Assembly: GCF_016019885.1 (NCBI RefSeq)
Contig: NZ_JAEANY010000002.1
Location: 186,001-250,000 of the forward strand
Direction of reading: 5' to 3'
Source of the DNA: Aurantiacibacter sediminis
GTDB lineage: Bacteria > Pseudomonadota > Alphaproteobacteria > Sphingomonadales > Sphingomonadaceae
Length of the DNA: 64,000 bases
In this document: piece by piece, positions 13,197 through 35,950 of the stretch
Layout of the letters: the number at the start of each line of letters is the position of its first letter
How positions within the stretch are numbered: position 1 is the first letter of the stretch
The notes under the pieces: generated by a model
What the model was told of the DNA's origin: nothing
What the model saw: only the letters and a program-made list of their open reading frames with translations
Databases searched by the model: none
Made by a program: the position numbers and the translations under genes

Positions 13197-13329
13197 GTCC
13201 ACGATGATCCCATAGGCGCAAAAGCCTTGCCAAACACTTGCGATTTCCCCCGCGTTCCAGCGCGGGACGATGGGCTTCGCACAGCTTGGCCTTGCGGAGC
13301 GAAATCGCGGCGACTAAAGCGGCCCCGAC

Positions 13330-13505
13330 GTCATGGGTTGCCAGCGAAGGCTGGCCTAAGAGGGAAGCGGGTGAGGATCCCGCGCTGCCCCCGCAACTGT
13401 GACCGGGGAGGGACATCTTCTGTATGCCACTGCGCGCGGGATTGCCGGGCGTGGGAAGGCGGGGATGGACCGCTGATCCGGGAGCCAGGAGACCTGCCTG
13501 CGATG
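13330..13505 (+). promoter_or_regulatory. Cobalamin (AdoCbl) riboswitch aptamer
   Basis: The region holds the class hallmarks in order: GGGAAGCGGGTGAGGATCCC, then GCTGCCCCCGCAACTGT, then GCCACTG, then a GGGAAGGCG segment, and finally the B12 box AGCCAGGAGACCTGCC at 13483-13498. The GGTTGCC near 13336 can pair with the terminal region to close P1. It lies directly upstream of btuB, so the btu operon should be turned off when cobalamin is plentiful. Confidence 0.95.
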
Positions 13506-13544
13506 GTCGCTTTTGCGGTCGGGCGGGGTGTACCGAAAGCAAAC

Positions 13545-13597
13545 GGGAGAGCGCGAGGTTTGCGCTCCCTCCGTCACAAGCGACGAGGTCGCTTTTG
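13545..13597 (+). promoter_or_regulatory. Likely riboswitch expression platform hairpins
   Basis: Two inverted repeats follow the aptamer. The first is GGGAG-A-GCGC pairing with GCGCTCCC (about 13545-13569). The second is AAGCGAC-GAG-GTCGCTT (13578-13594) followed by a short T-run, ending 7 nt before the btuB ribosome site GGAGG at 13601-13605. They could act as a terminator or as a stem occluding translation; the sequence alone does not decide between them. Confidence 0.55.
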
Positions 13598-13609
13598 ATA
13601 GGAGGTATT

Positions 13610-15511
13610 GTGCGTAAATTACTGTTTATTGGTGTTTCTCTTTCGGCTCTGGCGTTGCCCGCCATGGCGCAGGATGCCGAGGATGAGGATGTCATCACTC
13701 TGGCGAGCGAACGCCTGCCGGAGGAAGAGACCATCACCGTGACCGCCACCGGAACGCGCGGTTCGGTAGAGGCGTCAGGCCAGGCGATTACCGTGCTCGG
13801 GGTGGATGAGATCGCGTCGCTTCAGGGACCGGACCTCATTCGCGTTCTCGAGCGTGTCCCCGGTCTTACCTATAGCCGCAGCGGCAGTCTTGGCAGCCAG
13901 ACGAGCGTTCGCTTGCGCGGGGCCGAGGCTGAGCAGGTGCTTGTCGTGCTCGACGGAGTGCGGGTGGCTGATCCGGCATCGCCTGCGGGCGGGTTCGATT
14001 TCGGCAATTTGCTCAGCAGCAACCTCGCCAAGGTTGAAGTGCTGCGCGGCTCCAACTCCACGATTTGGGGATCGGATGCGCTGGGCGGGGTGATTGTCGC
14101 TTCGACCCGCGCTGAGACCGGGCTAGATGGCGCAATTGAATATGGCGCGAATGACAGCCTGACAGCATCGGCAGCAGGAGGCATGGCCGATGCCGACACC
14201 GGCTATCTTGGCGCTTCCGCCAGCTTTGCCCGCACCGATGGCTTCTCCGCTGCCGCCAATGGCAGCGAGGCAGACGGTTTCGAGCAGTGGGCGGTGGAGG
14301 GCTATGGCCGCTATTACGTCTCATGGGCGGTCGAGGCTTTCGCCCGCATCCGCCATGCCGAGGGCGAGTTGGAAATCGACGGTTTCCCTGCACCCGATTT
14401 CACGCTTGCCGATACGGATGATGTGCAGGACACGCGGCAGACCTTCGGGTCGGCTGGCCTCATCCTGGATAACGGGCCGCTCTATGTGCAGGCCGCCTAC
14501 AGCTTTGCCGACACCGCGCGCGACAATCTGGATGGCAGCGGCGTGGAGACCTTCACCAGTGAAGGCCAGTCCGATCGCCTTTCCTTGCGCGGTGAGTGGC
14601 GGCCCATCGGCCCAATCATCGTCAATTTCGGGGCGGAGAACGAGTGGACGCGCTACGAAACGCTGTTCGATGATGGCAATTCGGCGCGGCTCTTCGGTGC
14701 CTACACGCAGGCCGGGATCGAATGGCGCGGCATTTCCGGCCATGTGGGCGCACGGGTGGACGATCACAGCGAATTCGGAAGCGAAGTGAGCTTCGGAGCG
14801 GATGCGAGCTATGCAGTCGCCCACAATCTGCGCCTGCGCGCCAGCGTGGGGGAAGGTTTCAAGGCGCCAAGCCTGTTCCAGCTCTATTCCGATTTCGGCA
14901 ACCAGCTGCTGACACCCGAACAATCGACGACTTTCGACCTCGGCCTCGCCTATGGTGGGCGGGCGCTCGCCGATACGCCGTTCTATGCTGCGGTCACCTT
15001 GTTCCGCCGCGATGCGCAGGACCAGATCGGCTTTGTCAGTTGCTTCGGTAATACCGATCCGCTTTGCGATGACCGCCCGTTCGGTGGTTTTTACGACAAT
15101 ATCGCCCGCACCCGCGCCGAGGGGATCGAACTCGAGCTGCGTGGCCGCATAGGCGAAACCCTTCAGCTGGGCGCAGCCTACGCTTTTACCGATGCCGAGA
15201 ACCGCGACACTGGCAATCGCCTCGCTCGCCGCCCACGCCATGCTGCGACCTTCACTGCCGAGTTGATACCGCTCCAAGCACTCTCGCTAGGTGCAGACCT
15301 GCGTATTGTCGGCGCAAGCTTCGACGATGCGGGCAACTTCACCCGCCTCGATCCATATGAAGTGCTCACACTGCGCGCTGCCTATGATGTGACCGAGCAG
15401 GTACAACTCTATGGTCGGATCGAGAATGTCTGGGATGAGGAATACCAGACTGTCGCCGGTTATGGCACGCGCGGCCGGGCCGTCTTCATCGGGGCGCGGC
15501 TGGCGCTGTGA
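13610..15511 (+). CDS. btuB: TonB-dependent cobalamin receptor
   Basis: A 633-residue outer-membrane receptor for vitamin B12. It has a signal peptide (KLLFIGVSLSALALPAMAQ), a TonB-box-like ITVTATGTR segment, a plug domain (~45-155, with LRGAEAEQVLVVLDGVR), and a beta barrel ending in the usual aromatic-poor RAVFIGARLAL. I chose the GTG at 13610 because GGAGG lies just before it and the signal peptide begins there; the frame is open further upstream only through the riboswitch. Identity as the B12 receptor rests on the riboswitch and the btuFCD genes that follow with overlapping starts. Confidence 0.93.
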   Translation: MRKLLFIGVSLSALALPAMAQDAEDEDVITLASERLPEEETITVTATGTRGSVEASGQAITVLGVDEIASLQGPDLIRVLERVPGLTYSRSGSLGSQTSVRLRGAEAEQVLVVLDGVRVADPASPAGGFDFGNLLSSNLAKVEVLRGSNSTIWGSDALGGVIVASTRAETGLDGAIEYGANDSLTASAAGGMADADTGYLGASASFARTDGFSAAANGSEADGFEQWAVEGYGRYYVSWAVEAFARIRHAEGELEIDGFPAPDFTLADTDDVQDTRQTFGSAGLILDNGPLYVQAAYSFADTARDNLDGSGVETFTSEGQSDRLSLRGEWRPIGPIIVNFGAENEWTRYETLFDDGNSARLFGAYTQAGIEWRGISGHVGARVDDHSEFGSEVSFGADASYAVAHNLRLRASVGEGFKAPSLFQLYSDFGNQLLTPEQSTTFDLGLAYGGRALADTPFYAAVTLFRRDAQDQIGFVSCFGNTDPLCDDRPFGGFYDNIARTRAEGIELELRGRIGETLQLGAAYAFTDAENRDTGNRLARRPRHAATFTAELIPLQALSLGADLRIVGASFDDAGNFTRLDPYEVLTLRAAYDVTEQVQLYGRIENVWDEEYQTVAGYGTRGRAVFIGARLAL

Positions 15512-16314
15512 GACTGGGCGCCGCCTTGCTGCTGATGCTGGCGGGATGCGCGCAGCCCGAGACTGAGCGGGCGAGTGCCGAACATCCCACCATAGTCAGC
15601 CTCAACCCCTGCGCGGATGCGATCCTTGCGGAGATCACCGCGCCGGGTCAGCTGCTGGCGATATCGCATTACAGCCACGATCCCTCCGCGAGCTCGATGT
15701 TGGCGGAGGACGCGGCGCGCTATGCCAGCAGGGGCGGCACGGCAGAGGAGGTGATCGCTCTCGCTCCCGACATGGTGGTGGGCGATATCTTCATGGCGCC
15801 CGCCACGCGCCGTGCATTCGAACAGGCGGGCATCCACGTTGAAACGATCGGAATTGTCTCCACTCTCGAAGAAAGCATTGCGCAGATCGAGGGTCTGGGC
15901 GAGGCCACAGGCAATTCTACAGCCGCTGCAGAGATGTCATCCGCGCTTGAAACTCAATGGACAGAGTTCGGCTGGCAGGGCGAGCGCATTCCGGCGCTGC
16001 TGATCCAGCAGGGCGATATTGTGCCCGGTGAGCAATCGCTGGCGCATGCGATGCTCGAACATGCAGGCTTTTCCAGCCTCTCCGCCGCGCGCGGCCTGGG
16101 GCAGGGGGCCTATCTGCCGCTGGAGCAGGTGCTGGCCGATCCGCCGCAAGTCGTGATTGCAGCGGGCGACACGCGGATGCTGGAGCACCCTGTGCTGGGT
16201 GAGCTCAGCGGAGTGGAGCGCCACAACCTGGATTCCTCGCTTCTCTATTGCGGAGGTCCGACAATCCCCCGCGCGCTGGAGCACCTGCTCGAAATCAGGC
16301 GACAAGTCGGATGA
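15508..16314 (+). CDS. btuF: Cobalamin ABC transporter substrate-binding lipoprotein
   Basis: A periplasmic binding protein that delivers B12 from BtuB to BtuCD. The GTG start overlaps the btuB stop (GTGA). A signal with lipobox LMLAGC is followed by the type III binding-protein fold, with TIVSLNPCADAILAEI at the start of the first lobe and LAPDMVVGD before the connecting helix. The 268-residue length fits. The C-terminus overlaps btuC by 4 nt. The substrate is inferred from the riboswitch and gene order; the fold alone would also fit a siderophore-binding protein. Confidence 0.88.
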   Translation: MRLGAALLLMLAGCAQPETERASAEHPTIVSLNPCADAILAEITAPGQLLAISHYSHDPSASSMLAEDAARYASRGGTAEEVIALAPDMVVGDIFMAPATRRAFEQAGIHVETIGIVSTLEESIAQIEGLGEATGNSTAAAEMSSALETQWTEFGWQGERIPALLIQQGDIVPGEQSLAHAMLEHAGFSSLSAARGLGQGAYLPLEQVLADPPQVVIAAGDTRMLEHPVLGELSGVERHNLDSSLLYCGGPTIPRALEHLLEIRRQVG

Positions 16315-17276
16315 CCCGCGCCTCGCTCACCTTCGGCGCGTTGCTGCTCATCGCCATACCACTTTCCCTGCTCGCAGGGCGGGTGTGGATCGATCCGGCG
16401 GGCGGCACCGCTAACGCCGCGCTGATCCTCGCCGAGCTGCGGCTGCCGCGCGCTGTGCTGGCGGTGGTGATTGGCGGAGGACTGGGCGCGGCGGGCGCGG
16501 CCATGCAGGGCTACCTGCGCAATCCGCTCGCTGATCCGGGGCTGTTCGGCATTGCGCCGGGCGCGGCCTTCGGTGCGGTCATGGCGATCTGGCTTGGCAC
16601 AGCATCGACTGTCATCCTCACCGGCTCCGCGCTTGCTGGGGCCTGCGGAGCGATGGCGCTGCTCGCACTGATAGCCGGACGCACTGCCAATCCGCCGCAC
16701 GGTATTGCGCTCTTTACACTCGCGGGGATGATGATCGCCAGCCTCGCAGGCGCGCTGACGAGCCTTGCTATCAGCCTTGCGCCCAATGCCTTCGCGATGA
16801 GCAGCATCGTCACGTGGCTCATGGGCGCGCTGACTGATCGCAGCTGGAACGACGTGACACTCGCGGCGCCGCTGACGCTGGCGGGCGTTCTCGTCCTATG
16901 GCGCGCCGGGAGATCTCTCGATGCCCTGACGCTGGGAGAAGAAGCTGCGCGCTCGCTCGGCGTGAATCCGCGCAGGCTGATGTGGGCGATGGTGCTCGGC
17001 ACCGGCCTCACCGTGGGCAGCGGCGTGGCCGTGGCCGGGATCATCGGCTTTGTCGGCCTGATCGTGCCGCACCTCGTGCGCCCGATGACCGATAAGCGCC
17101 CGTCCAGCCTGATCGTACCCAGCGCACTCGCCGGCGCCTTGCTGGTGCTGGTGGCGGATGTCGTGTGCCGCATATTGCCGCTGGTGACAGAGCTGCGGCT
17201 CGGCATCGCGCTGAGCCTGATCGGCGCGCCGTTCTTCTTGTATCTTCTCCTGCGCATGCGCAGGGGGCTGGCATGA
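16311..17276 (+). CDS. btuC: Cobalamin ABC transporter permease
   Basis: A FecCD/BtuC-family permease of 321 residues with about ten membrane segments. LPRAVLAVVIGGGLGAAGAAMQG and NPLADPGLFGI are classic family motifs. GEEAARSLGVNP is the coupling region that contacts the ATPase, and GFVGLIVPHLVR is the conserved late loop. The ATG at 16311 overlaps the btuF stop (ATGA). A longer upstream frame would read back through btuF and is not needed. Confidence 0.93.
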   Translation: MTRASLTFGALLLIAIPLSLLAGRVWIDPAGGTANAALILAELRLPRAVLAVVIGGGLGAAGAAMQGYLRNPLADPGLFGIAPGAAFGAVMAIWLGTASTVILTGSALAGACGAMALLALIAGRTANPPHGIALFTLAGMMIASLAGALTSLAISLAPNAFAMSSIVTWLMGALTDRSWNDVTLAAPLTLAGVLVLWRAGRSLDALTLGEEAARSLGVNPRRLMWAMVLGTGLTVGSGVAVAGIIGFVGLIVPHLVRPMTDKRPSSLIVPSALAGALLVLVADVVCRILPLVTELRLGIALSLIGAPFFLYLLLRMRRGLA

Positions 17277-31922: not shown

Positions 31923-32011
31923 CCGTTCGTCCTGAGCTTGTCGGACTCGTAGAGGGACCAGAGGCCAACGGCGTTTGCGCTGTCGCCCTTCGACAAGCTC
32001 AGGACGAACGG
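31923..32011. repeat. Inverted pair of a CTGAGCTTGTCGAAGG-type element
   Basis: The left arm at 31923-31943 reads CCGTTCGTCCTGAGCTTGTC; the right arm at 31986-32011 is its reverse complement with a CCCTTCGACAAGC end. A third copy lies inside the gene at 32284-33225 (32765-32790). Confidence 0.85.
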
Positions 32012-32098: not shown

Positions 32099-32287
32099 AT
32101 GAATTCCCTGACCACCATCGACGTTGCACAGGCCCGCCTTGCTGCGGTTGATTTGTTTGACCCTCAAGCGCCGGGCGCTGGCATCCGCCAGCTTGGCTCC
32201 TCGCAAAAGCTCGGACGCGCGGTCGCGCTTGCCTCGGCTGCGCCTCGGTTGCTCTCGCTCAACGCTAGCGTGGGAGGTGCAGCATGA
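32099..32287 (+). CDS. Small hypothetical protein preceding the terminase-like gene
   Basis: A 62-residue frame starting at the ATG at 32099, with MNSLTTIDVAQARLAAVDLF and an Ala/Leu-rich C-terminus (SAAPRLLSLNASVGG). Its stop overlaps the ATG of the next gene (ATGA), the main support for translation. No ribosome site is obvious and no family is recognised. Confidence 0.45.
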   Translation: MNSLTTIDVAQARLAAVDLFDPQAPGAGIRQLGSSQKLGRAVALASAAPRLLSLNASVGGAA

Positions 32288-33225
32288 TGGCGCTCGTACC
32301 GGTCGACACCCCAAACCCCACCTTCGGCAATAGCGAAGCCCTAACGCCGGTGCGGATGGCGCTGTTTCTCAAGTCCATGCAGGTGATGGGCAATGTCTCC
32401 ATCGCGTGCAAGCGAGCAGGCGTTGCTCGGCAGACGGCCTATCGCGCGCGGCGGCGGTATGCGGGGTTTGCGCGCGCCTGGGATGCGGCTTTGCTCGCTG
32501 CGCGGGTGGTGGCGGAGACGGAGCTGGCGGACCGGGCGATCAACGGGGTGGAGGAGAGCGTCTATTACCATGGCGAGGAGGTGGGGATGCGGCGGCGCTA
32601 TTCGGACAGGCTGCTGCTCGCCCATCTCGCGCGGCTCGACCGGATGGCGCAAGATGCCGAATTGGTCGCGGCGGCGGAGCTGCTGGATGACCAGATCGAG
32701 GCGCTGGAGCGGGGGGAGGACATTGCGTCTCTGGATGCGTCCTTCGCTCCGGATGCGCAAAACGCCCTTCGACAGGCTCAGGACGAACGGATGGGGGGTG
32801 CTCAGGATGAGCGGGGTGGGGGTGCCCCACGCGAGCGGAATGGGGGTGCTGGGAAAGGGGCTGGGAATTCTGATCAGGACACTGTCACACCTGTCACACC
32901 CCCTGTTGATCCGTGCCCCGATTGCGGTGGCTATTGCGTGGATGCGGAGGAGGATGCGCGGGTCACGCTGACGCAGGATGACTGCATGTGGCTCGGCAAT
33001 CGGCTCAACCGCATGGATGCCGCGCGGCCTGCTGGCGTGGCGCCGCCGCATATGCGCGGCCTGCCGATGGAGACCTATGCCGCAATCGAGAACGACCAGC
33101 TGCTCGCCTTCGAGGCGGGGGAGGAGCGCTGGTGGCTCGTCGGGTTTGAGGATGAGGATCAGGAAGACGCGGACGCGGAAGAGGGCAGCGATGGCCGGCT
33201 TGGTCCGCGCGGCGGCGTGGAATGA
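32284..33225 (+). CDS. HTH protein resembling phage terminase small subunits
   Basis: A 313-residue protein in three parts. Residues ~20-125 hold a helix-turn-helix (MGNVSIACKRAGVARQTAYR) and a helical region with a YSDRLLLAHL segment, the pattern of terminase-small-subunit-like proteins common in sphingomonad chromosomes. Residues ~160-205 are a low-complexity linker spelled by a dispersed DNA repeat (RQAQDER, GGAQDERGGG). The C-terminus has CPDCGGYC, a possible metal knuckle, and an acidic tail. No large terminase or portal gene is next to it, so it may be a solitary relic or a domesticated regulator. Confidence 0.7.
   Translation: MMALVPVDTPNPTFGNSEALTPVRMALFLKSMQVMGNVSIACKRAGVARQTAYRARRRYAGFARAWDAALLAARVVAETELADRAINGVEESVYYHGEEVGMRRRYSDRLLLAHLARLDRMAQDAELVAAAELLDDQIEALERGEDIASLDASFAPDAQNALRQAQDERMGGAQDERGGGAPRERNGGAGKGAGNSDQDTVTPVTPPVDPCPDCGGYCVDAEEDARVTLTQDDCMWLGNRLNRMDAARPAGVAPPHMRGLPMETYAAIENDQLLAFEAGEERWWLVGFEDEDQEDADAEEGSDGRLGPRGGVE
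32765..32790 (+). repeat. Dispersed repeat element inside a coding sequence
   Basis: CCCTTCGACAGGCTCAGGAC and the following GAACGG match the intergenic pair at 31923-32011 with one change in the aligned core. It is read in frame and encodes LRQAQDER. Confidence 0.85.
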
Positions 33226-33261: not shown

Positions 33262-33828
33262 CTAGTCGAGCAGTTCCAGCTCAACGCGCCCATGGCCGCG
33301 GCGGATCATGCCGATCTCGCTCGCAGCGGCGCGGGACAGGTCGATCGTGCGGCCGCGCGTGAAAGGGCCGCGATCGTTGATGCGTACGATAACGGACTGG
33401 CCGTTGCGCGGATTGGTCACCCGCACGCGGCTGCCGAAGGGGAGAGTGCGGTGCGCGGCCGTCATGGCGTTCATGTTGAACCGCTCCCCATTGGCCGTCA
33501 GCCGGCCGTGAAAGCGGCGACCGTAATAGCTGGCGACACCGCTGCCGAGCGAGGTGGCGGCAGGTGCAGCAGGCTCGATCATGGTGATGTCGACTGCGCC
33601 GTCCGTAAGCTCGGGTTCGATCGGCTCATCGAAAGGTGCGAAGACCTCCTCCAGCGCAGGCTCTTCATCGGGGATGAACATGGGCGCAGGCGGAGCTTCC
33701 ACCACTCTGGCGGCGGACAAGTCGGCACGCTCCTGCGCCAGGCCCGAAGCCGACGTGCCGAGCATTCCCAGCGCGGCGAGCGCCAGGGCTGCGTGCGGGA
33801 CGATATGCGAGAGCTTGCCTCCAGTCAT
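33262..33828 (-). CDS. rlpA: RlpA-like double-psi beta-barrel protein
   Basis: A 188-residue secreted protein. The signal peptide ends near ASGLAQ, an acidic/Pro-rich linker follows, and the C-terminal ~95 residues form the RlpA domain: [46 protein letters not shown] and [10 protein letters not shown]. The family includes septal lytic transglycosylases acting on denuded peptidoglycan; the catalytic Asp/His positions (NDRGPF, AAHRTLP) are kept. It lacks a SPOR domain, unlike E. coli RlpA. Confidence 0.9.
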
Positions 33829-34060
33829 GGCGGCGCATGTAGCGAAAGCGAGGCGGAATTGACAGTTTCGGCGGGGTTAACGGGCGCAAAACGGCGTCCT
33901 TCCACCGCCAAACGCCCTACAAGCGCGACGAATGGAGCCGGTCTGCGCTCGAAGGATGGTCACAAAGGCGCCGCAATTGACGGGATCGGCATCGGCTTCA
34001 GAGTCGCAGACATTGGGAAAACGCAATCGGGTACGAACCGTCGGGAGCGCAAAAGAGAAA
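33829..34060. other. Intergenic stretch between rlpA and the candidate RNA
   Basis: About 230 nt without a convincing gene. TTGACAG at about 33869 on the plus strand is -35-like but unpaired with a good -10. Nothing else recognised. Confidence 0.4.
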
Positions 34061-34086
34061 TGGGGCCGGCATTGCTGCCGACCCCA
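34050..34086 (-). terminator. Terminator-like stem at the end of the candidate RNA
   Basis: Minus strand: TGGGGTCGGCA-GCAA-TGCCGGCCCCA, followed by TTTCTCTTTT. Confidence 0.6.
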
Positions 34087-34540
34087 CTCTCACCGGCGTG
34101 TGGACCCCCGAAGGGATACTTGGCGCCTGGCGTGTCTTCTTCCGGTCGTTGCCCGAAGGCCCGGTTCCTTCCGAATATGTCGCCCGGCGCTCGCGCCGGT
34201 GCCGGAGCTCGGTTTTCCGCTTGGCGAGCCTCGCAAGGAGTCTCAGCCGCGCTTTCCACCGTTCCGAGGCCGACATTGTCCTCTGGTGTCTCAGGCGGTT
34301 CCTTCCTGCACCGAAGTGCCCTTCCAGAACCTCGACACCGGATTTCTCCTCCGGCCTATCCAATGATTGCTTCTCTCGGTCTCAACAGTCCGGTTGGTGT
34401 CCAATCTCCCGAAGGAGATCTTCCATCTTCCTTTCCTCTTCCGCGACAAGGCAATCATCGCGTCGAAGCTTTCCGCTTTCCCCTGTATCCGAACCGGCAG
34501 GCGGTTCTTCGTGGCGGTCTGTTTCCGTCTTCGATGTTTG
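34061..34540 (-). ncRNA. Candidate large structured RNA
   Basis: Read on the minus strand, this gap holds a chain of stable stems. UUCG tetraloops cap four of them: ATCTCC/GGAGAT (34404-34419), GCAC/GTGC (34308-34319), GCC/GGC (34151-34160) and CCC/GGG (34106-34115). A CCGGCG/CGCCGG stem lies at 34184-34199. A 10-11-bp GNRA-loop stem at 34061-34086 is followed by a T-rich run. The cUUCGg form occurs only on this strand. GGAAGGAACCG occurs twice. The 5' end is a guess. It is not RNase P RNA, tmRNA or SRP RNA by their conserved motifs; a structured mRNA leader or a coding frame is not excluded. Confidence 0.45.
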
Positions 34541-34580
34541 TAGAATGCGCGTGACAGCCGAGTCGGGCAAGGGCGCGAGC

Positions 34581-34635
34581 GTTGACTTATCCACTTTTGG
34601 CCGGAATGCCAGTGGACAAGGGTGGATAAGTCAAC
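34581..34635. promoter_or_regulatory. Inverted repeat with DnaA-box-like sites
   Basis: GTTGACTTATCCAC (34581-34594) and GTGGATAAGTCAAC (34622-34635) are a perfect 14-bp inverted repeat around 27 nt. Each arm contains TTATCCAC, the DnaA-box core. A third related site, TTGTCCACT, lies on the minus strand at 34611-34619. The arms also contain TTGAC, so a promoter -35 on either strand is possible. Position upstream of the candidate RNA suggests it may control it. Confidence 0.55.
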
Positions 34636-34735
34636 GGCTCGGCGTTTCTGGCGAAACTATCCCCGTTTTTGCGACGAATTGCGGCTCGAAGTGACTCAAA
34701 AGACTCACATTTGACGCCTTGGTGCGATTCGATTC

Positions 34736-35950
34736 TCAGCGATCACGTTTGGCGAGAAGCCGGAGTCGAAGGGCATTCAGCTTGATGAAGCCCGCTGCAT
34801 CGGCCTGATCGTATGCGCCGGCATCGTCCTCAAATGTGACATGCGCTTCCGAATAGAGCGAGGCGGGGGACTTCCGGCCCACAACCATCGCGTTGCCCTT
34901 GTAGAGCTTCAGCCGGACGGTACCGATGACCTTCTCTTGGCTGAGGTCGATTGCTGCCTGCAGCATCTCGCGCTCCGGGCTGAACCAAAAGCCATTGTAG
35001 ATAAGCTCCGCATATTTCGGCATCAGCTCGTCCTTCAGGTGAGCAGCGCCGCGATCGAGTGTGATCTGTTCGATACCGCGATGGGCGCGGGCGTATATCT
35101 CGCCGCCCGGCGTTTCATACATGCCGCGGCTCTTCATACCGACGAAGCGGTTTTCGACCAGATCGAGGCGGCCGATGCCGTGCTTGCGGCCCAGATCGTT
35201 AAGCGCGGTCAGCAGTGTGGCAGGGCTCATGGCCTCACCATTCAGCGCCACGCCATCGCCCTTCTCAAAGTCGATGGTGATGTATTCGGGCGCGTCGGGA
35301 GCTTGTTCCGGATGGTCGGTGCGCGAATAGACATAGTCGGGCGTCTCCTCCCACGGGTCTTCCAATACTTTGCCTTCGGACGAAGTGTGGAGGAGGTTCG
35401 CATCGGTCGAGAAGGGGCTTTCGCCGCGCTTATCCTTGGGCACCTGGATCTGGTGCTTTTCGGCCCAGTCGATCAGCGCGGTACGGCTGGTCAGATCCCA
35501 TTCGCGCCAAGGGGCAATGACGGTTATGTCCGGATCGAGCGCGTAGGCGGAGAGTTCGAAGCGCACCTGATCATTGCCCTTGCCGGTCGCGCCATGGGCG
35601 ATGGCATCGGCGCCGGTTTCATGCGCAATCTCGACGAGACGCTTGGAAATCAGCGGGCGAGCGATGCTGGTGCCAAGCAGGTAATCGCCTTCATACCGCG
35701 CGTTCGCACGCATCATCGGGAAGACAAAATCGCGCACGAATTCCTCGCGCAGGTCCTCGATATAAATGTGTTCGTCCGGAATGCCCATCGCCTGCGCCTT
35801 CGCGCGCGCGGGTTCTATTTCCTCGCCTTGTCCGAGATCGGCAGTAAAGGTGACCACCTCCAGCGCGCGCTCCTTCATCAGCCATTTGGCAATGACGCTG
35901 GTATCGAGGCCGCCCGAATAGGCGAGGACAACGCGTTTGATATCGGACAT
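34736..35950 (-). CDS. argG: Argininosuccinate synthase
   Basis: ArgG condenses citrulline and aspartate with ATP hydrolysis to AMP in arginine biosynthesis. It is 404 residues, the normal length. The N-terminal ATP-binding loop is [12 protein letters not shown]; further family segments are [29 protein letters not shown] and [15 protein letters not shown]. No terminator is obvious after the stop; the 100 nt downstream lead into the DnaA-box region. It is monocistronic as far as can be seen. Confidence 0.98.

Follow-up and report, generated by a model that had tools for sequence, protein, structure and literature searches.

OLE, GOLLD, ROOL and other large structured RNAs of bacteria are several hundred nucleotides (nt) long and highly folded, and RNAs of the CsrB/RsmZ type join conserved upstream activator sites to a changing, GGA-rich body of many hairpins and a strong terminator. 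Here we analyse a predicted non-coding RNA (ncRNA) of ~480 nt encoded between argG and rlpA on the minus strand of a 64,000-nt stretch of Aurantiacibacter sediminis DNA (the window; G000:C7:186001-250000, in a genome of 2.67 Mb). The argG-rlpA RNA is like OLE, GOLLD and ROOL in size and folding; unlike them, it has no Rfam match, is chromosomal and syntenic, and occurs in one bacterial family in the searches made. We found no account of it in the open-access literature.

A second point of comparison is CcnA of Caulobacter crescentus, an alphaproteobacterial ncRNA tied, as the present RNA may be, to the DnaA-GcrA-CtrA cell-cycle circuit; in the accessible part of its description CcnA is 182 nt long, lies at the origin, is presumably activated by CtrA and has weak DnaA boxes in its gene (PMC8959179). 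Compared by description rather than by sequence, the argG-rlpA RNA differs in its length, in its distance from the origin in the sampled relative, and in a promoter that carries a fixed array of three boxes and a GANTC site. That DnaA, CcrM and GcrA might control ncRNAs is not a new idea, having been proposed for C. crescentus, where a bioinformatic survey examined the promoters of ncRNAs for DnaA boxes, CcrM sites and GcrA peaks (PMC5988900). The ncRNAs of that survey differ from the present one, being other RNAs, from another order, and predictions only, and the accessible text describes no conserved array at fixed spacing for them. GcrA/CcrM-dependent promoters are similar in having GANTC close to the start: C. 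crescentus GcrA targets were defined through GANTC at most 40 bp from the start, and YGAKTCG is given as the extended GcrA motif of that species (PMC7987155, in its accessible part). Unlike those promoters, not all promoters of the argG-rlpA RNA have a GANTC site, and their GcrA sites are predicted.

A covarying RNA between argG and rlpA

The locus is almost certainly an independent gene for a structured ncRNA, judged by what its sequence and those of its relatives contain: a promoter-like block of its own, a terminator, covarying structure and no conserved reading frame, as expected of a gene for a trans-acting RNA. The original prediction had read the minus strand here as a structured ncRNA, and conservation, covariation, strand signals and the absence of a universally open frame all support that reading. 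The predicted parts are as follows.

34054-34535, minus strand: predicted ncRNA transcript of ~480 nt, taken from the conserved block between promoter and terminator, its 5' end placed by the spacing from the -10 element
34202-34535, minus strand: fast-evolving 5' and middle part with UUCG-capped hairpins and purine-rich linkers
34091-34201, minus strand: conserved 3' domain, from covariance models R1 and R2 and from covariation
34201-34192/34100-34091, minus strand: outer helix of the 3' domain, from the model pair list
34189-34173/34139-34124 and 34119-34112/34109-34102, minus strand: inner helices of the 3' domain
34058-34089, minus strand: GCAA-capped terminator hairpin, from a hairpin scan, paired in 100% of aligned cells

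In a structure-fitted alignment of 100 loci, 95.9% of 4045 cells were standard pairs, compared with 88.6% in shuffles and 39-45% when the partners were slid, and double-change cells numbered 370 against 106 in shuffles. Relative to a null of 100 alignments simulated along the fitted tree, covariation summed over the 41 model pairs reached 961 (null mean 3.9, s.d. 40.8, maximum 100), and the seven top-scoring pairs all belonged to the model, five of them at E <= 0.05. As this alignment had been fitted to the structure, the test was redone on a MAFFT alignment made without it; the sum over 40 pairs was 919 against a null maximum of 116, with the six top pairs in the model and three at E <= 0.05. 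The compensatory changes anticipated by the original prediction are thereby found in both alignments. The 3' domain is modelled as a predicted three-helix junction that is followed by the terminator.

Folding of the window RNA is better than that of its shuffles (z -2.8, 1 of 100 as good), but the opposite strand also beats its own (z -2.0, 0 of 100), so a single sequence leaves the strand undecided. Over 37 diverse members the mean folding z was -3.7. Consensus energy across the genus, set against 200 column shuffles, gave z -9.3 for the transcript strand and -6.6 for the opposite one; most of this energy resides in the 3' domain (-57.2 versus a minimum of -29.5 in 100 shuffles), while the 5' and middle part, at -11.6, lies just beyond its shuffle minimum of -11.2 (100 shuffles). 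Helices of the model-fitted alignment hold 707 G-U and 55 A-C cells, a ratio that the fit itself favours, and UUCG-capped stems average 1.58 per RNA on the transcript strand and 0.007 on the other (142 RNAs). Together, the G-U to A-C ratio, the UUCG stems and the consensus energy lead us to take the minus strand as the RNA.

Most of the elements by which the original prediction had been recognized were found again in the window RNA. Its four minus-strand cUUCGg-capped stems lie at 34414-34409, 34316-34311, 34158-34153 and 34113-34108, whereas 1,000 dinucleotide shuffles yielded 0.011 such stems on average and never more than 1; the plus strand has no such stem, so the orientation is one-stranded as stated. 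The repeat GGAAGGAACCG is present twice (34306-34296 and 34172-34162), and the single-stranded segments between the stems correspond to purine-rich linkers. Two elements needed revision. A CCGGCG/CGCCGG stem can be drawn at ~34199-34184, but the covariance model gives these bases longer-range partners, and behind the GNRA-type (GCAA) terminator-like hairpin the supposed T-rich run is weak (ATTTCTCTTTT). Because a simple scan expects 1.1 such terminator sites by chance, the weight of the hairpin comes from its conservation. Its invariance in the 100-row alignment is partly a matter of choice, since 58 rows came from stretches with the exact terminator pattern; the hairpin is also nearly invariant in 30 loci chosen without that pattern. 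Near-copies of the terminator (86-89% identity) occur elsewhere in relatives (G008:C2:196896, G004:C109:3314, G007:C7:158319, G031:C17:171642 and G009:C85:2353) and may represent a small repeat or a type of terminator used in common.

A protein-coding gene was considered and rejected. Promoter matches below 28 bits were dropped and identical sequences merged, which reduced 172 loci to 142 distinct ones, and without L024 and L113, both shorter than 400 nt, 140 RNAs remained. By the length of stop-free stretches, no frame is open throughout these 140, which also speaks against the conserved protein frame that the original prediction had named as its alternative: in each frame the longest such stretch drops to 25-29 amino acids (aa) on the minus strand and to 43-54 aa on the plus strand. 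If the best minus frame of each RNA is taken, the median stop-free stretch is 108 aa, a length explained by the scarcity of T in the RNA. The plus strand of the window carries a 420-aa open reading frame (33292-34554) antisense to rlpA.

Rfam 15 contains no family matching the RNA; the only matches fell below the gathering score, namely two miRNA families (E <= 10) on the plus strand of the promoter palindrome and, in other loci, sR28 and asX4. The statement that the RNA is not RNase P RNA, tmRNA or signal recognition particle (SRP) RNA agrees with this lack of an Rfam match, no separate search for an SRP copy having been made. A misplaced RNase P RNA, tmRNA or 6S RNA was also dismissed, as the genome's copies lie elsewhere. 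The 6S RNA at G000:C7:452339-452509 (minus strand) scores 46.8 bits against an Rfam cut-off of 46.4, which suggests a diverged 6S RNA.

A conserved promoter-like block with DnaA-box-like sites and GANTC

Two findings go beyond the original prediction: the spread of the RNA outside the genus, and a predicted promoter block at 34636-34542 that is conserved to the same degree as the 3' domain. The block comprises the elements below; the DnaA-box consensus is TTATCCACA.

34580-34636, no strand: 23-nt inverted repeat that includes S1 and S3, 87% complementary
34621-34629, minus strand: S1, DnaA-box-like TTATCCACC, supported by the S1-S3 spacing
34611-34619, minus strand: S2, DnaA-box-like TTGTCCACT, conserved
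34587-34595, plus strand: S3, inverted DnaA-box-like TTATCCACT, conserved
34565-34570, minus strand: predicted -35 element TTGCCC, with a conserved TTG, 17 nt from the -10 element
34560-34564, minus strand: GACTC (a GANTC site) at the start of the spacer, supported by GANTC counts across promoters
34542-34547, minus strand: predicted -10 element CATTCT, from conservation

S1 and S3 are 35 bp apart in 133 of the 138 promoters in which this distance could be measured and 25 bp apart in the other five, despite a variable intervening sequence, so that box sequences stand at fixed positions as in DnaA-regulated promoters. In two loci (L073 and L082) S3 is 11 nt closer to the -35 element, about one helical turn, a shift that would fit factors that must face the polymerase. 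The TTGACT within S1 was rejected as a -35 element because no -10 element follows it, and TTGCCC/CATTCT fits the conservation better.

A GANTC site stands near the predicted start, as in promoters of the GcrA/CcrM type. Within 62 nt after S3, GANTC is found in 115 of 142 distinct promoters (shuffle mean 27.7, maximum 38), as a sole GACTC in 65, GAATC in 27 and GATTC in 20 and as two sites in 3, and YGAKTCG occurs on either strand in 81 of 142 (shuffle mean 4.3, maximum 11); both comparisons overstate significance, the promoters being related by descent, and this is a point against the regulatory reading. The genome encodes GcrA. On balance, these sequence features incline us slightly towards control of the RNA gene by DnaA and GcrA.

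The same boxes invite two readings in which the DNA itself does the work. Known DnaA titration and reactivation sites are datA and DARS, and a strongly conserved box array with fixed spacing could be such a site, its transcript being incidental. The RNA helices covary, which a DNA site does not need, and we consider this explanation quite unlikely. A chromosomal origin of replication would likewise account for three DnaA-box-like sites within 50 bp; we regard it as extremely improbable. In the relative G002 the cumulative skew minimum lies near 1.2 Mb and the locus at 2.91 of 2.97 Mb (skew sampled every 150 kb, ~13% of the genome), in G036 parS-like sites with one mismatch are almost 1 Mb from its locus, and the window shows no clear skew switch. 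One-mismatch parS-like sites were found in none of G002, G010 and G018. As the locus in relatives combined neither a skew minimum nor a nearby parS, oriC was discarded.

Distribution and gene setting

A blastn search with positions 34050-34720 matched 34 of 61 genomes (the window's own included), 33 of them among the 37 of its genus; the single match outside the genus (G041) was weak (E 0.006). Conservation peaked at both ends of the RNA, with a variable middle. R1, a covariance model of the 3' domain based on 30 loci, at E <= 4e-7 detected the RNA in 115 of the 396 genomes searched in the order and in 20 of 84 genera. At E <= 0.01 it matched 199 genomes; the 84 with matches weaker than 4e-7, mostly short where listed, are not counted here. 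The exact terminator pattern occurred in at least 118 stretches among the matches listed, from Erythrobacter, Porphyrobacter, Qipengyuania, Altererythrobacter, Aurantiacibacter, Croceibacterium, Pelagerythrobacter, Parerythrobacter, Pontixanthobacter, Citromicrobium and similar genera or under unspecific metagenome names. As foreseen in the original prediction, a covariance search found the RNA in the same gap of relatives: argG and rlpA flank it in all 30 best loci (L056-L085), with rlpA inverted in L075. A search anchored on ArgG in 30 genomes of 20 genera yielded loci from 28, of which four (L204, L205, L213 and L217) had both boxes and terminator.

R3, a sequence-only model of the promoter block, reached further, matching 163 of the 396 genomes and 32 of the 84 genera at E <= 0.01. 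From genera with a weak R1 match or none we took 18 R3 matches. In 16 of them a body of 336-688 nt could be traced by eye as far as a terminator hairpin, whose loop was often of the GNRA or UUCG type, and 16 also showed GANTC by eye (exceptions L266 and L270), which is not independent evidence because the model includes the GANTC region. The bodies have little recognizable sequence in common with the window RNA; that these loci belong to the same family rests on the promoter, the terminator and, in ten of them, the nearby argG. The other eight (g64, g47, g31 and g26), which are among the weaker R3 matches (E 6e-9 to 2.5e-5), lacked both argG and rlpA within the 3.5 kb examined. In three g31 loci (L264, L265 and L276) a diverged RNA gene directly precedes, by translation by eye, a purL-like gene rather than argG or rlpA. 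A class-wide R3 search gave nothing convincing outside the family: of 385 genomes eight matched, four within the family, and the four outside it were weak (E 2.7e-4 to 0.009), at about chance level. In the order, one weak R3 match lay outside the family (G039, 6.1e-4).

These loci bear on whether the RNA could belong to rlpA, as a 5' leader or riboswitch, or to argG, as a 3' untranslated region. In the window the neighbouring genes are

34736-35950, minus strand: argG (NCBIfam NF001770)
33262-33828, minus strand: rlpA (TIGR00413)

and the gap between them, which the original prediction had located correctly but put at ~850 nt, spans 33829-34735, or 907 nt. Constancy of the neighbours in the 30 best loci would suit a leader or an untranslated region. 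The RNA has a promoter-like block and a terminator of its own, however, and more than 200 nt of poorly conserved DNA separate it from rlpA, so that the description 'before rlpA' holds as a position and nothing beyond. With eight of 18 R3 loci lacking both genes and 16 of 18 traced to a terminator, the data argue for an independent gene and not an rlpA leader, and we judge either form of this alternative very improbable. A fixed control region and terminator around a drifting body likewise point to an independent regulatory RNA gene.

Elsewhere in the window, a cobalamin riboswitch (Rfam RF00174, 119.7 bits) lies at 13318-13515 on the plus strand, and downstream of it we recognized by eye a TonB-dependent receptor-like protein (13424-15511), a BtuF-like binding protein (15508-16314) and a BtuC-like permease (16248-17276). 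A repeat of the TTCGACAAGCTCAGG type is present in three copies (31931-31945, 31989-32003 and 32768-32782) with at most two mismatches, where 0.14 are expected; one copy falls inside an open frame at 32284-33225 (313 aa, with no Pfam or NCBIfam match).

Discussion

On these results, the explanation that we favour overall, and think probable, is a cell-cycle-timed RNA that acts in trans with a protein partner. RNA polymerase with the housekeeping sigma factor would start near 34535 from TTGCCC-17-CATTCT. The time of transcription would be set by DnaA, bound upstream at the three boxes, and by GcrA, which would recognize the methylated GANTC of the spacer, and the RNA would then be made in step with replication initiation and fork passage. 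Transcription would end with the hairpin 34089-34058. A stable RNA end would be formed by the conserved 3' domain together with the terminator, and the changeable 5' part, with its UUCG- or GNRA-capped hairpins and purine-rich linkers, would offer a binding surface, most likely for a protein. The RNA may act in trans on other transcripts. On general knowledge, its short weak U tail would speak against a classical small RNA of the Hfq type. Any one particular mode of action must be called doubtful.

A rival account of the body is a CsrB/RsmZ-like sponge, in which many GGA motifs titrate a GGA-binding translational repressor. The architecture is the same (activator-site palindrome, changeable body and strong terminator), the window RNA has 24 GGA, and GGA exceeded UCC in all 37 members examined (655 versus 142 in total), with a mean z of 1.56 for GGA relative to dinucleotide shuffles; for this count the terminators of R3 loci were picked by eye, and L272, a near-copy of L269, and L275, which has no terminator in its stretch, were left out. 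The enrichment is nevertheless weak and is absent in L076 and L080. Unlike CsrB and RsmZ, the argG-rlpA RNA belongs to a genome without CsrA (no PF02599 match in the window's genome, the one searched), and GGA is not preferentially exposed in loops, the predicted unpaired fraction being 0.48 for GGA, 0.46 for GAG and 0.67 for GAA. We therefore consider a sponge unlikely, and the small GGA enrichment together with the missing CsrA leads us to prefer the protein-partnered, cell-cycle-timed trans-acting RNA.

Several observations weigh against the reading that we prefer. Almost every individually significant pair belongs to the hairpin 34119-34102, namely four of five in the fitted alignment and all three in the structure-free one, and an alignment of the whole RNA (140 RNAs) gave three pairs at E <= 0.05, again all in this hairpin, one of them with standard pairing in only 69%; the remaining helices rest on the summed score and on the counts of double-change cells. 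No UUCG-capped stem is present in 32 of 142 RNAs. In the control region, 27 of 142 promoters have no GANTC, and many of these 27 come from genomes with the name Erythrobacter or Porphyrobacter; L204 and L205 have lost S1. It is by resemblance that the boxes count as DnaA sites, single-mismatch DnaA boxes are no commoner in the window than by chance (14 versus 10.4), and a sigma-70 consensus scan gave no promoter at the RNA locus. For GcrA of Brevundimonas subvibrioides, the accessible part of the report records no extended motif (PMC7987155). Finally, blastn found no match in 4 of the 37 genus genomes; one of these, the draft G033, rated 100% complete, was without a match by blastn, R1 and R3 alike, which indicates that the RNA is not indispensable. 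G033 may represent a natural loss of both the RNA and the promoter block.

We tentatively advance a wider proposal, which we hold less firmly than the trans-acting RNA itself: an undescribed RNA family, spread across much of one alphaproteobacterial family, might be under the joint control of DnaA and of GcrA, the latter reading CcrM methylation, with replication start and fork passage setting the RNA dose and gene expression or the replication machinery as the target. A structured RNA that is present in 20 genera by strong matches and in more by its promoter block, and that Rfam 15 does not list, suggests an unstudied function in common bacteria. If the promoter has been read correctly, chromosome replication and DNA methylation would be linked to control at the RNA level outside Caulobacter.
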